In this document: piece by piece, positions 30,527 to 61,480 of the stretch | Position numbering within the stretch: the stretch's first letter is position 1 | Layout: each line of letters begins with the position of its first letter | IMG/VR virus record: IMGVR_UViG_3300046004_002250 | Location: 1-63,279 of that record | DNA length: 63,279 nucleotides | Strand: one strand, 5' to 3' | DNA from: a virus | The notes under the pieces: model-generated | The model's input: the letters and a program-made list of their open reading frames with translations, nothing else | Databases searched by the model: none | Told to the model about the DNA's origin: nothing | Translations under genes and position numbers: made by a program

Positions 30527-30550
30527 GAGACAGTTGACGGGACATGTCTC
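30527..30550. promoter_or_regulatory. GAGACA/TGTCTC inverted repeat before terminase
   Basis: GAGACA (30527-30532) and TGTCTC (30545-30550) surround TTGAC (30534-30538), directly upstream of the small terminase start. Similar GGGACA/TGTCCC pieces lie at 30413, 30474 and 30488. Confidence 0.4.
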
Positions 30551-30555
30551 ATATC

Positions 30556-31332
30556 ATGAGTGATGAGGCAGGCCATAGTGAGGATGTGGCAGATCAGGCG
30601 CAGGAGGACTTGGAAAGTATCCGGCGTCAGGATTTGCAGAACATCCGTGCCTTTGCGAGAGCCGGGCGGCCTTTGACTGCGGAGCAGTTGCGGAGACTTG
30701 AGGCGGCGGACAGGGGGCAGGGTTCTTTGAATCTGGAGACGAGTGCTGCGGGCCAGCCGGTGTATGTGGCAAATCAGTCCATGCTGGCAGAGGCGCTAAA
30801 TCTGGCGGACCGGAAAACGATCCAGCGTTGGTTGCGCAAGGAAGGTGCGCCGCAGGCGACTGATGACGGGCGCTATGATGTGACGGCGTGGCGGGCTTGG
30901 ATGCTGACCAATGGGCTTGGCAGCAGGCGCAAGGAGCATGATCTGGAATCACTCAAGAAGGAACATGCGACGCTGGACCTGCGGACGAAGCAGATCGAGC
31001 TGGATGAACTGGAAGGACGCAGCGCGCCGATTGATGATGTGGTGCGGATTGTGGTGGAGCAGTATGCGCGGATGGTGCAGGGCTTTCGATCCATGCGGCA
31101 CTCACTGGCACCAGCGGTGGTTGGGGAAACGGTGCCGGAGGCGAGCAAGCGCATTGCGGCGGCGGTTGACGAGGTGCTTGGGCAATTTGCGATTCCTGAG
31201 AGCGCAAAAAAAAAAGTGTTTTGGAGGAACGCATCTACGAAGCTTGCAAGCCGCCTACCAGTGTTGCTCCACACGATTATGCCAGAGCCCACTTCCGTTT
31301 GCACAACGGAGACCGATGGGACCCTGACCTGA
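30556..31332 (+). CDS. Terminase small subunit
   Basis: 258 aa from ATG 30556 (ATG 30544 is also possible). Residues about 75-125 form a DNA-binding HTH (LNLADRKTIQRWLRKEGAPQ) followed by a coiled coil (RRKEHDLESLKKEHATLDLRTKQIELDELEG in two halves) as in Nu1-like subunits. After Ala-Lys-Lys-Lys at a run of ten A (31206-31215) the remaining 35 residues look out of frame. The natural product may therefore end by frameshifting into the large subunit. Confidence 0.75.
   Translation: MSDEAGHSEDVADQAQEDLESIRRQDLQNIRAFARAGRPLTAEQLRRLEAADRGQGSLNLETSAAGQPVYVANQSMLAEALNLADRKTIQRWLRKEGAPQATDDGRYDVTAWRAWMLTNGLGSRRKEHDLESLKKEHATLDLRTKQIELDELEGRSAPIDDVVRIVVEQYARMVQGFRSMRHSLAPAVVGETVPEASKRIAAAVDEVLGQFAIPESAKKKVFWRNASTKLASRLPVLLHTIMPEPTSVCTTETDGTLT
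31206..31215 (+). promoter_or_regulatory. A10 slippery run in terminase overlap
   Basis: Ten consecutive A. In the small-subunit frame this is A AAA AAA AAA, a good site for -1 ribosomal or transcriptional slippage, which would enter the large-subunit frame (open from 31200). Confidence 0.45.
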
Positions 31333-32996
31333 GATTTCAGGAAAAGATCATGCGGGATTTTGCCGATCCGGCGATCCGCAAGCAGGCCTGCCAGTGCAGT
31401 GCGCAGAGCACGAAGACGGTGCTGATGTATGGCTGCATGGGTTATGCGTTTTTGGAAGATCCGGGCCCGTTTCTTTGGGTGACGAAGTCGCTGCCGGAAG
31501 CGAAGAAGATGGCGGAAGCCTACTTGTGGCCGTTCTGGGAGAACACGCCAAAGCTGATGGAGAAGCTGCCGACGCAGCGAGACAAGAAACGGAAACTGTC
31601 GGCAAACTTTGGCGGGTTTTATTTCAACATCACGGGGGCTGATGCGGCGGCATCATTGCAGTCGCTGCCTTACCGATACTTATTTTTGGACGAGGTGCGG
31701 CAATGGCGTGCGGGGGCGCTGGAGCAGGCGAGCAAGCGGACGCGGTCGTATCCGCATAACTACAAGCAGTTCATGGTCTCCTGTCCGGACATGGAGGAGG
31801 ATATGATGGATCGAGCGTTTCTGGCCGGCAGTCAGGAACACTGGCATGTGCCATGCAGGAGTTGTGGCCACATGCAGGTGCTTGACTGGGGTGAGAAGAA
31901 AAAACCGGGCGGGGTGAAGTGGGATGACAATGAGATCACGCACCCGAACGGTGTGTGGAATCTGGACGAGGCCACGAAGTCATTGCGCTTTGAGTGTGAG
32001 TCCTGCGGGCATGAGCACCGCGACATCCGGCCATCAGGTGCAGACCGGAAATGGTTTTGTCGTGAAGGTGAATGGGTGGCTTACAATCCTGATGCACCGG
32101 CGGACTACAAGAGCTACACATGGAATGCGCTGCTGCCGCACTTCACCAGTTGGGCGGATCAGTTTCATGAGTTTCTGCGGGCAACGCAGGCGTTGAAGTC
32201 GGGCGACATCATGCCGCTCAAGGATCATTGGAATGAAACCCGCGGCAAGGTGTGGGCTGACCGGATGCGCTTTGCCAAGGACGATGAGTTCTTGAAGGAG
32301 CGTGAGCATCATTACCTGCCGGGCGATGTCTGGGAGAATGAAGTGCGGCGGTTCATGACGATCGACGTTCAGGGCAAGGGCGGACGCCACTATTGGGTGG
32401 TGATTCGTGCCTGGGGACAGTTCGGCCAATCCCGCAAGCTGCATCATGAAAAGGTTTACACGCGGGAGGATCTGATGCGGTTGCAAAAAGAGTGGGGTGT
32501 TGACCCGCGCAATGTGGCGATCGACTCGGCCTACTCGACGGCGGAGATTTACAAGCTGGTCATGGAGAGTGGCGGGCTGTGGAAAGCCATTCGTGGGGAG
32601 GAGAAACAATTCTTCACGCAGGATCACGGAGTCAAGGCGATCTGGGCCATGTCGAAGTTTGACCCGGCCATGGGCACGCGGTTGCAGGGACAGGTGGCGG
32701 CGATGCCGTTGTGGCTGTTCTCAGCACCGGCGACGAGGGAGCGGTTGGTGATGATGATGTATGGTGATCTGGGCGACTGGAGGCTGCCGCTGAATGAGGA
32801 TCATGAATACAAGCGGCAGGTGACAGCTTGGGAGCGCAAGCTGGTGCAGGGCGGACGGGGTGGTGCCAGCTACGTCTGGTATCAAAAGCGGGTCGATGAC
32901 CATCTGGAAGCCTGTGAGCGTATGCAGATTGCATGCGCGGCGATCTGTGGGCTTTTTGAGGCGGCAGATGGCAGTGCGCAGTTGCCACTGCTCTGA
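31221..32996 (+). CDS. Terminase large subunit (GpA-like)
   Basis: 591 aa if TTG 31221 is used. The ATPase has the degenerate P-loop CSAQSTKT (59-66) and Walker B YLFLDEV (153-159). A zinc-binding insertion has C212/C215 and C259/C262. The nuclease Asp lie in TIDVQGKGG (D382) and AIDSAYST (D435). This is the lambda gpA family. No ATG precedes the conserved W.DPDLRFQEKIM region, so expression depends on TTG or on a -1 shift from the small subunit. Confidence 0.9.
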   Translation: MEERIYEACKPPTSVAPHDYARAHFRLHNGDRWDPDLRFQEKIMRDFADPAIRKQACQCSAQSTKTVLMYGCMGYAFLEDPGPFLWVTKSLPEAKKMAEAYLWPFWENTPKLMEKLPTQRDKKRKLSANFGGFYFNITGADAAASLQSLPYRYLFLDEVRQWRAGALEQASKRTRSYPHNYKQFMVSCPDMEEDMMDRAFLAGSQEHWHVPCRSCGHMQVLDWGEKKKPGGVKWDDNEITHPNGVWNLDEATKSLRFECESCGHEHRDIRPSGADRKWFCREGEWVAYNPDAPADYKSYTWNALLPHFTSWADQFHEFLRATQALKSGDIMPLKDHWNETRGKVWADRMRFAKDDEFLKEREHHYLPGDVWENEVRRFMTIDVQGKGGRHYWVVIRAWGQFGQSRKLHHEKVYTREDLMRLQKEWGVDPRNVAIDSAYSTAEIYKLVMESGGLWKAIRGEEKQFFTQDHGVKAIWAMSKFDPAMGTRLQGQVAAMPLWLFSAPATRERLVMMMYGDLGDWRLPLNEDHEYKRQVTAWERKLVQGGRGGASYVWYQKRVDDHLEACERMQIACAAICGLFEAADGSAQLPLL

Positions 32997-57621: not shown

Positions 57622-57649
57622 GCTGCCAAGTTGACGTGGAGTGGCCAAC

Positions 57650-60600
57650 ATGGCTGACAACTCCAAAATTTCCGGCGGCGACCGCGCGCGCAATGCACTC
57701 ATCACCGGCACGGCCGGGGCTTATCTCGGCAGCATGGTGCTGGATGGGAAGCATAAAATTCCCAAGGCATTGCAGCGTCTGCTGCGCACACGGCGGCGCA
57801 CCATGACCGTGCATGGCGCACGGGCAGGCGGAGTGGCTGGCGCGGTGCTGGGAGCCACCAACAAAGGCAAGCGCAGTGAGACCGTGGACAGTGTGGCCAC
57901 GGGTGGTGACTGGAAATTCAGCGCCTTCATTGAAGACATGGTCTTCAAATCCCTGCCCAAAGAAGTGCAGGGCGAAGTGACGCGCTTTGTCGATGCCAAG
58001 GCAGGCACGCCGCTGGTGCATTACGGTATGACGGTGGCGGAACTGATCGGCAAAGCGGATGCCGAAAATTTGAAGTCGGCACGCAAAGCATTGGGCACCC
58101 TGCGCGCCAGTCGGGCACGGGAAGAGGTGATGGGCAAGATCAAGGGCGGCAGCAAATACATCCTGCTCATGAACGACCGCATTGTGGACGGGCATCACTT
58201 TTTGGCGAAAGCCGAGCGCGGCGCGATCACCAGCAGCCTGAACGTGCTGGATCTGACCCCGGCACGGTTGAGCACAGGGAAGACCACGGAGTTTGGGTTT
58301 CTGTCCATGCGCTCAAACCCAGATCGAGGCACACGGGCCACCAACTCAGATCCGAAGAAGGCTAAGTGGAAAGCTTTGATCGGCAGCGTTACGCCTGACG
58401 AGGCTAAAAAACTTGAAGGCCAGCACCAAAATGCTGAAGCAAAATCGAAAACGGTGAGGGATGCCCAACTGGTGATCGGCGGTGGCTTGGTTGGTCAAAA
58501 GCTGGTGCGTGAGGGGCGGGACAGACTAACTGGCCGCACAACTTTGTATCATGGCACGGACAAAGCCTCCGCGAAGAATATCCAGAAAACAGGGCTGAAA
58601 TCAGCGGACCGTGCGAAGACTCACGGAATTTCGGATGTGATCATGGGCGGTGGGAAGGAGTCGTTTAATCCGTTTGGCGGCAACAAGGCCGACATGCTCA
58701 AAAAGACGCGCAAGGGTGCTTTCTTGTCCCATGAAAAAGGCATGAATGGAGCGGGCCAGTATGCCGCTCAAAGTGCCTGGCTAAAGGAAGGCGGACGCCC
58801 ACTGAGCGCCGAAGATGTCAAAAAGATCATGGACGCCAAGGATAGCGGCAAAGGGATGGGAAAGGCTGTGGTTACGGCGGTGCGTAAAAAACTAGGACGT
58901 GACCTCATGCCGCTCACGCATCGGCACAAAGGCACCGTTTTGAAGTATCGCATGCCGCTGTGGCGGAAAGGATTGCAGAAAAATTTGATGCCGAATCCAG
59001 AGGTTGATCAACTGCTTGATCCAGTTGCTTCCTTCATGCTGAAAGACCGCACCAAAGTGATGAAGAACAAAGCACCGGAATCCTACCGCGTTGGCTCAAA
59101 GCATTACAAGGGGATGTCGATGAAGGAATGGAAACAGTATATCAAACTGCACCCCAAGCGTGCTGCCGCCGGTGCGGGCTTGGCAGTTGGTGGCGCGGCG
59201 ATGCTGGCTGGCAGCGGTGTCTATGCGAAGAAGGCATGGAAGGAACGCAAGGCGCGGAATGAAAAGCTCAAAGAGATGTCGGCGCGTTTGAGCCTGACGG
59301 CGTTCGCTGACCCCTCACGCAATCGCACGCGGGATCTGCGGGACAAGCTGGGGCTGGCGAAGGATGTGGGCGTGCTGGGCTTGATCGGTGGCGCGGGCTA
59401 CGGCGGGCACAAGCTTTATAAGCAGGGGCAGAAGGCGGTGACGGAGCTGACGCCTGCCGTGCGCCGCACCCTGGCGCGGGCGAATGTCGGGCTGCGTCAG
59501 GCGGGCAAGATTGGCAAGAGCTGGCGCAAGGCGGCGATTAGCACCAAAGAAACCCTGGGCACGGTGAACGATGCCGTGCAGCCAGCGGCGTCGATGAATC
59601 GCGGCATTGCCAAGGCGGGTCGCAAGATTGCGGTCGGGGCCAAGAAGATCGGCCAGATCAAGCTGTGGGCGGATGGGCGGAAGCTGACGCAGTTTGAAAC
59701 CGCACCGAAGCGTGACAAGCTGAGCCGTGCGCGTGACATCGCCGTGCTCGGTGGAGCGGCGGCGGCGACGGCTGGGGCGGGTTATCTGGTGCATCAGGGA
59801 CACAAGGTGGTGAAGGCGGTGGCACCGACCGTGAAGGACATGAAGGCAACGACGACGAACGTGCGCCATGCCACCCGCATCAGTGCGGATGTCGGGCGGG
59901 TGTATGGGGATCTGACACAACCGCTGCGTGAGCCGAAACGCTATCAGGCCAAGGTGCGCGGGGCATTCCGGCGCGGGAAGCGCAGTGCTGCGGCAGCGCC
60001 AGCACCAGGCTGGGCGCAGAAGGTGGTGCGCATCGGCAAGAAAATCCGGCTGCTGCAAGTCGGGCCGGAAGGCCAGATGAAGCTGACGCAGTTCAATATC
60101 ATCGGGGCCGCGGTGGGCACGGTGGCGGGGGCGATGCTGGGCGGCAAGGTGCGGGCACCGCTTTACCGGACGCTGTTAAAACGGAATCCTGAAAAGCCGC
60201 TGGGCAAGTGGGCCAAGCGTCGGGCGCGTGCTGGTGCGTATGCCGTGGAAAACGGCATGCCAGCCATCGGCGGTGCAGCGGGTGGCATGATTGGCCGCAA
60301 GCAGCAGGAGATGGGGGATCTGCGTGTGCTGCGTAAGTTTGGCAGCAGTGAGCAGCAGGCTGACCTGCACAGCAGCCGCTACATGGACTCCTGGGACAGT
60401 TTCATCGGCAAATCCAAGGGCTACCGCAAAAAGGATGTGAACGAATACCATCGCCTGCGGCGGCAGTTGGCGGATCATGAATCAGGCGCACGCAAGTTCG
60501 CGCCGGAGACCGTGAGCAAGATCCATGCCAGCATGAAAGACATCGAGGACAATCCGCTGGAAGCCACCACGGGGCAGATTGGGCGCAGCATCATGCGCAA

Positions 60601-61480
60601 GGCCAATACTGTGCGCATGGTGTCGGAGCGCGGCGGCGGTCTGGCGCATGATGCAGTCAAGCATCTGCGCGGCGACAAGCGTGAGAAGGATGCCTGGGGT
60701 CGCGAGAAAAAGCGTGAGTGGGAAAAGCCATGGTTCCAGCGCAAGCGCAATCAGCTTGTGGCAGGCGGGGCCATTCTGGCCACTGGTTTGGCTTACCGCA
60801 AGTTCCCGAAACTGCAGCGCGGAGTTGAGGGACTGAAAATCAAGGGCAAGGATGCCGTGAACAAAGTCTTTCCAGACACCTTTCCAGACAAGGGCACAGC
60901 CCATGCTGCGGCGATGACGGGCAAACCGCAGAGCACCAGCGCCATGATCGAGGAAGAGGCCAAAGCTCTGGCAGCCAAGCTGGCCAAGGATGCCAAAGAG
61001 GCGAAGGCACGCATCAAGGGCTCCAAGCTCAAGGTGGTCAAACCCAAGGCCAGCAGGCCAGTCAAGGGAGGCGACACGCCATCTTTGAATCTGGCGGCGT
61101 ATTTGGGCAAGGTCACCCGGTTCAGTGATCCACTGGATGCTGGCTGGGATCTGCGGGATGCGCGGGGCCGTTCGGCGCGGGTGTTTGCACCGGGCAGTCA
61201 GGGCCGTGATCGCAGGCCGAAGGAGTGGTATGAAAAGATCGACAACGAACGCAAGCTCTGGGCGGGTGCGGCACTGGCCGGCACGGGCCTGAGTGCAGCG
61301 GTCATGCACAAGCTGGGCGGCAAGAAACTGGTCACTGCCACAGAGCGGGCGGTGCAGGCTGAGCGAGCCAAGATCCGCAAGGCGCTGCAAGCCGTGCACA
61401 AGAAGCGGGCGGCCGCCGGTGGGTCGCCACCGTCCAACATTCGATTCATGCCCAAACCCTCCGCTGGGGCAGCGGCTTAA
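57650..61480 (+). CDS. Giant modular virion protein with ART-like domain (copy B)
   Basis: 1,276 aa from ATG 57650; TTGAC (57631-57635) is 14 nt upstream (the GTG at 57641 is less likely). Very basic, Gly/Ala/Lys/Arg-rich. Residues about 299-435 resemble an ADP-ribosyltransferase: LYHGTDKASAKNIQKTGL, GAFLSHEKGMNGAGQYAAQSA and GTVLKYRMP. From residue 500 on, five Gly/Ala-rich segments follow or adjoin [LV]TxF sites: VTRF 110, LTAF 549, LTQF 679, LTQF 812, VTRF 1155. I infer a polyprotein cut by the prohead protease and ejected with DNA; T4 Alt is a known packaged ART. Confidence 0.7.
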   Translation: MADNSKISGGDRARNALITGTAGAYLGSMVLDGKHKIPKALQRLLRTRRRTMTVHGARAGGVAGAVLGATNKGKRSETVDSVATGGDWKFSAFIEDMVFKSLPKEVQGEVTRFVDAKAGTPLVHYGMTVAELIGKADAENLKSARKALGTLRASRAREEVMGKIKGGSKYILLMNDRIVDGHHFLAKAERGAITSSLNVLDLTPARLSTGKTTEFGFLSMRSNPDRGTRATNSDPKKAKWKALIGSVTPDEAKKLEGQHQNAEAKSKTVRDAQLVIGGGLVGQKLVREGRDRLTGRTTLYHGTDKASAKNIQKTGLKSADRAKTHGISDVIMGGGKESFNPFGGNKADMLKKTRKGAFLSHEKGMNGAGQYAAQSAWLKEGGRPLSAEDVKKIMDAKDSGKGMGKAVVTAVRKKLGRDLMPLTHRHKGTVLKYRMPLWRKGLQKNLMPNPEVDQLLDPVASFMLKDRTKVMKNKAPESYRVGSKHYKGMSMKEWKQYIKLHPKRAAAGAGLAVGGAAMLAGSGVYAKKAWKERKARNEKLKEMSARLSLTAFADPSRNRTRDLRDKLGLAKDVGVLGLIGGAGYGGHKLYKQGQKAVTELTPAVRRTLARANVGLRQAGKIGKSWRKAAISTKETLGTVNDAVQPAASMNRGIAKAGRKIAVGAKKIGQIKLWADGRKLTQFETAPKRDKLSRARDIAVLGGAAAATAGAGYLVHQGHKVVKAVAPTVKDMKATTTNVRHATRISADVGRVYGDLTQPLREPKRYQAKVRGAFRRGKRSAAAAPAPGWAQKVVRIGKKIRLLQVGPEGQMKLTQFNIIGAAVGTVAGAMLGGKVRAPLYRTLLKRNPEKPLGKWAKRRARAGAYAVENGMPAIGGAAGGMIGRKQQEMGDLRVLRKFGSSEQQADLHSSRYMDSWDSFIGKSKGYRKKDVNEYHRLRRQLADHESGARKFAPETVSKIHASMKDIEDNPLEATTGQIGRSIMRKANTVRMVSERGGGLAHDAVKHLRGDKREKDAWGREKKREWEKPWFQRKRNQLVAGGAILATGLAYRKFPKLQRGVEGLKIKGKDAVNKVFPDTFPDKGTAHAAAMTGKPQSTSAMIEEEAKALAAKLAKDAKEAKARIKGSKLKVVKPKASRPVKGGDTPSLNLAAYLGKVTRFSDPLDAGWDLRDARGRSARVFAPGSQGRDRRPKEWYEKIDNERKLWAGAALAGTGLSAAVMHKLGGKKLVTATERAVQAERAKIRKALQAVHKKRAAAGGSPPSNIRFMPKPSAGAAA

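Follow-up and report, generated by a model that had tools for sequence, protein, structure and literature searches.

How does a virus make the large subunit of its terminase when the reading frame for that protein has no ATG before its conserved N-terminus? The question is raised by IMG/VR virus record IMGVR_UViG_3300046004_002250, which we analysed whole, as one stretch of 63,279 nt (the window; all features below are on the + strand). The open reading frame (ORF) for the terminase small subunit (TerS; 30544..31332) crosses a run of ten A's (A10; 31206..31215) as GCA AAA AAA AAA GTG and has a tail of 38 codons (114 nt) past the run, up to a TGA stop (31330..31332). The frame for the large subunit (TerL; 31200..32996) lies -1 to TerS and is closed upstream of the run by a TGA (31197..31199), and its homology to relatives begins at the run; the stretch 31216..31332 can be read in both frames, as TerS tail and as TerL N-terminus. 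Before the conserved N-terminal motif of TerL, the sole ATG, GTG or TTG is the TTG at 31221..31223, with the next candidates at 31299 (TTG) and 31350 (ATG). An earlier note, generated from the sequence alone, had described the run as the link between the two genes, had seen that the large frame is open from just before it and has only this TTG, and had pointed out that the frames would be joined by a -1 slip or by a run of eleven A's. These descriptions agree with ours, as does the continuation of the small frame through the run, which the note put at 35 residues rather than 38. From comparison with related sequences, we propose that the run is very probably a programmed slip site giving a TerS-TerL fusion, by slippage of either RNA polymerase or the ribosome.

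Profile matches assign both genes. The window TerL, of the GpA type, matched the ATPase domain PF05876 (E 7.6e-35; 121.2 bits against a cut-off of 25.6), as did 10 of 10 aligned members, and phrog_15 over residues 7-578 (E 2.9e-68). The GpA nuclease domain PF20454 was matched by 5 of the 10, with no match in the window TerL at E up to 0.1, and a sequence search for solved relatives of TerL returned none. TerS, encoded just upstream, matched phrog_57 (E 2.1e-12), as did 23 of 23 rows of the TerS alignment, from which L054 (truncated TerS), L130 and L132 were left out.

A search for relatives with TerL as query, blind to the run, returned seven records at 72-100% identity and later an eighth at 68% (L017); all have exactly A10. 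Viral contigs were also scanned with the pattern GCN A9 NNN TTY TGG, which is biased toward the run. The 28 stretches found comprised 8 known contigs, 11 further TerS/TerL junctions (TerL identity about 38-43%; L034 with TerS only) and 9 stretches without a TerS or TerL match; a first scan of genome contigs gave no match. Because the pattern favoured the run, we carried out a second survey, in which a TerL alignment with search peptides taken from outside the run was used against genome contigs (4 loci), viral contigs (the best 80 of 190) and genomes from the phylum and order of two matched genomes (at E up to 1e-100, 3 of 387 and 6 of 386). Of the ten rows in this alignment, seven came from the run-biased scan. 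Altogether, 89 loci fell into 50 TerL clusters at 90% identity.

An A9 or A10 run is present at the TerS/TerL junction in 24 of the 50 clusters (33 loci), ten with A9, 14 with A10 and none shorter than nine. All 24 fall within a single clade of 26 clusters (support 100/99), in which 24 of 25 readable clusters carry the run; the two members without it are L062 and L066, the latter unreadable because its contig starts at the junction. Among clade members chosen independently of the run, 14 of 15 readable ones carry it. The homologues in the clade thus keep the run, the opposite of the separate, normally started genes without a run that would speak against the earlier note's idea. Outside the clade, no junction run reaches nine and 22 of 24 clusters have an ATG, GTG or TTG for TerL. 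The junction run also exceeds what chance would give, since it is the only A/T run of at least 8 in the window, and since the loci of the 24 run-bearing clusters (196,847 bases) hold 24 A/T runs of at least 9 at the junction and 2 elsewhere.

In 23 of the 24 run clusters TerL is -1 to TerS, and in none is it in frame. The position of the run relative to the codons is not fixed: its phase against the TerS frame is 0, 1 or 2, varying among clusters, in L017 it is shifted by one base (GCC A10 C, not GC A10 GTG) and still ten long, and in L068, L071 and L117 there are, by subtraction, 15-18 more nucleotides between the run and the YTG codon that most clusters have just past it. Across the 21 clusters that could be aligned by column (the three displaced ones were left out), entropy is zero in the eight run-core columns and averages 1.66 bits at upstream TerS third positions. 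Inside TerL, by contrast with these columns, no invariant stretch of at least 5 nt was found across the 24 clusters; both AAG and AAA occur in the three invariant Lys columns, and AAA makes up 0.295 of the 903 TerL Lys codons. Since the step is a constant -1 despite three phases and the displacement, the comparison points to selection on the A's and the frame step, and not on a KKK peptide. The conservation of the run, the constancy of the frame step and the restriction to one clade are direct observations, as is the lack of a common TerL start codon described below.

In the mechanism we favour, the unslipped message would give TerS with its short tail. RNA polymerase would add one A to some of the transcripts (or, less likely, the ribosome would slip -1 on A AAA AAA), and translation would enter the TerL frame and yield a TerS-TerL fusion, which would be the main or only source of TerL; the efficiency of the slip would set the ratio of TerS to TerL. 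We infer that slippage happens at some such level and that the fusion functions in the packaging motor. The earlier note had listed slippage among its options, and we consider it the best of these. Between the two ways of slipping, we favour the polymerase, as about twice as probable, because all runs have at least nine A's, because no structure signal lies downstream and because of published slip thresholds. One review describes highly efficient slippage of bacterial RNA polymerase in vivo at runs of nine A or T (PMC5009743), and according to another source the Escherichia coli enzyme slips only at 7 or more T, with a still higher number required for A (PMC6260861). Coding-strand homopolymers of about 9 or more A or T occur in all 24 clusters, and an added base opens a conserved second frame in 23 of them, the exception being L130. 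Folding downstream of the run gave a mean z of 0.05 (n=24) and controls -0.16 (n=96), that is, no stem-loop signal in the 24 clusters against 96 control windows, with pseudoknots outside the model. No common AGGAGG-like element was seen upstream of the run across the clusters, although no formal test was made; a promoter scan found nothing, and the one Rfam match was below the gathering score and away from the run. We give an even chance to the fuller proposal that this clade makes its packaging ATPase only as a TerS-TerL fusion through RNA polymerase slippage on A9/A10, that the slip rate would fix the ratio of free TerS to fusion, and that the out-of-frame TerS tail, predicted to be helical, has a role of its own.

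The two frames past the run also bear on the tail itself. The earlier note had taken the TerS continuation for a shadow of the large subunit. Over the 13 codons following the run, conservation in the 21 aligned clusters is 0.489 in the TerL frame, 0.490 in the zero frame and 0.360 in the third, so the tail is not a mere shadow. In the predicted TerS model (mean pLDDT 81, pTM 0.42), Lys 222-224 separate a short helix from a helix in the tail (225-245), and this tail probably forms a genuine part of TerS; searching the PDB with the TerS fold gave no match at E up to 0.001. In the window, the zero-frame stop (CTG AGA in the TerL frame) is made by an AGR codon of TerL, as is the stop of L007 and of L017, at the same position. 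AGR is rare among the Arg codons of TerL (window, 5 of 43; L007, 1 of 44; L017, 2 of 45), which hints that the stop is kept, although the three rows are related.

Several observations weigh against a fusion as the general source of TerL. Ten of the 24 run clusters were first found with a pattern that contains A9. With both frames conserved after the run, conservation in the TerL frame is no proof of a fusion, and we dropped it as proof that TerL is translated from the run. L062, sister to the A9 row L064, has no run and an ATG for TerL that overlaps TerS, which shows that an unfused TerL is possible. L130 departs from the -1 rule: it has A9 (around 1500 in the oriented locus) where the arrangement of its neighbours needs A10, which puts TerL at +1; it could represent a prophage in decay or a miscounted run, or else an arrangement that slippage by the polymerase alone could accommodate. 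Start codons are available in part of the clade, with an NTG just before the run in 9 of the 24 run clusters (ATG in L048) and a TTG only after it in 7, and an internal TerL start is possible in both groups. In the distant L082 and L089, outside the clade, a CTG closely precedes the TerL anchor, at the position of TTG or GTG in relatives; it overlaps the TerS stop in L089 and seems to be used as the TerL start in both. Because CTG may serve there, a missing start codon is not decisive by itself.

These points lead to the most serious rival without a fusion, in which TerL would start internally, at the TTG or CTG about four codons past the run or at an NTG before it, and the run would be an initiation enhancer or a by-product. 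The YTG is at the same place in most clusters, which favours such a start, as do the NTG codons before the run, the likely CTG starts of L082 and L089 and the overlapping ATG of L062. On the other hand, 8 of the 24 run clusters have no ATG, GTG or TTG for TerL before the conserved motif. In L007 there is none from the upstream stop to codon 43, and the TTG of the window is CTG in both L007 and L017; in L064 the position is CTT, with no CTG either. In L047, L049, L059, L060 and L064, a TAA that takes in the first A's of the run rules out any start upstream of it, the run is far from the YTG in L068, L071 and L117, and a run length of at least nine is left unexplained. The TTG start offered by the earlier note is thus weakened, and we consider an internal start improbable. 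Run and no-run loci hardly differ in Shine-Dalgarno matches (1 of 25 candidate starts and 2 of 23 clusters, respectively), and these were dropped as a discriminator. Separately, we noted that the TerL start annotated at 626 in Roseobacter phage CRP-821 (L020, ~427-626) probably lies too far downstream, as matches in the TerL frame extend back to 470, with an ATG near 427 that overlaps TerS.

Three other readings were also considered. A -1 programmed ribosomal frameshift on A AAA AAA would give the same fusion and is a variant of the slip-site proposal; an in-phase A AAA AAA of the X XXY YYZ type lies within every -1 A9/A10 run, and phage lambda gpGT uses the same direction (PMC5009743). This heptamer, however, needs only 7 A's in phase 2 or 8 in phase 1, where the actual runs are 9 or 10. 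The downstream structure signal is lacking, none of the 24 clusters showed a slippery site of the A6G type, and the +1 arrangement of L130 could not be served by a -1 ribosomal shift; we regard the ribosome as a possible, though rather unlikely, agent. The earlier note had also raised an assembly error, with a true A11 and a single ORF; homopolymers are error-prone, and the count in L130 does not fit its relatives. All seven records of the window's cluster nonetheless have A10, from at least five datasets besides that of the window, and in the clusters other than L130 the offset between the frames is the same, whether the run is A9 or A10. We therefore rejected an assembly error as the general cause, and a miscount is very improbable. 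Even less probable is a phase-variable contingency run, in which replication slips would toggle an in-frame fusion. A homopolymer within coding DNA and the single-A difference of L130 are what such a run could produce, but no in-frame state occurs among the 24 clusters and the run length is constant in the seven records of the window's cluster. An off state would be hard to rationalise, since genome packaging requires TerL.

The literature searched, which left out most subscription papers and bioRxiv, gave no report of a TerS-TerL fusion by slippage or frameshifting. Four known systems come nearest. In Citrobacter rodentium tssM1, with proven transcriptional frameshifting at A11, a long A-run also lies near the end of an ORF and added A's restore the frame, giving two products that are both needed (PMC4256274); that gene is not from a phage and is one broken gene restored, whereas here two motor genes would be fused. 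Thermus thermophilus dnaX likewise has a 9-base A/T run at which slippage sets the ratio of two products, but there slippage shortens the product, while here it would add a whole second protein (PMC5009743). The G/GT tail chaperone of phage lambda shares a role in phage morphogenesis and a -1 step that fuses a product to the next frame at a set ratio; it differs in being ribosomal, in acting in tail assembly and in having a T part without a stand-alone enzyme role (PMC5009743). For Streptomyces phage Hau3, recoding, likely bypassing, has been proposed in a terminase gene; it is tied to a UUA codon, and the accessible text describes no poly-A or TerS-TerL fusion (PMC5009743).

Relatives were found in metagenome-assembled genomes (MAGs) labelled Akkermansiaceae and Verrucomicrobiales, with further relatives in genomes of that phylum and order. 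The hosts are probably Verrucomicrobiota bacteria, although binning of viral contigs can err. In a phage collection the best match had 26% identity and no close isolate was found, in both cases among the matches listed. The Akkermansiaceae MAG that holds L048 (G001) has a second, distant TerL on contig C65:5866-7626. The window also encodes a tyrosine integrase, a portal, a major head protein and a tape measure, and at 57641-61480 there is a 1279-aa ORF without a PHROG match at E up to 0.001.

For phages that bear such a slip site, gene callers are likely to misplace the start of TerL. The numbers of TerS and TerL chains that work together are still debated. If the proposal is true, a slip site tying TerS and TerL together would be a natural handle on their ratio and would provide a fused packaging motor to study.
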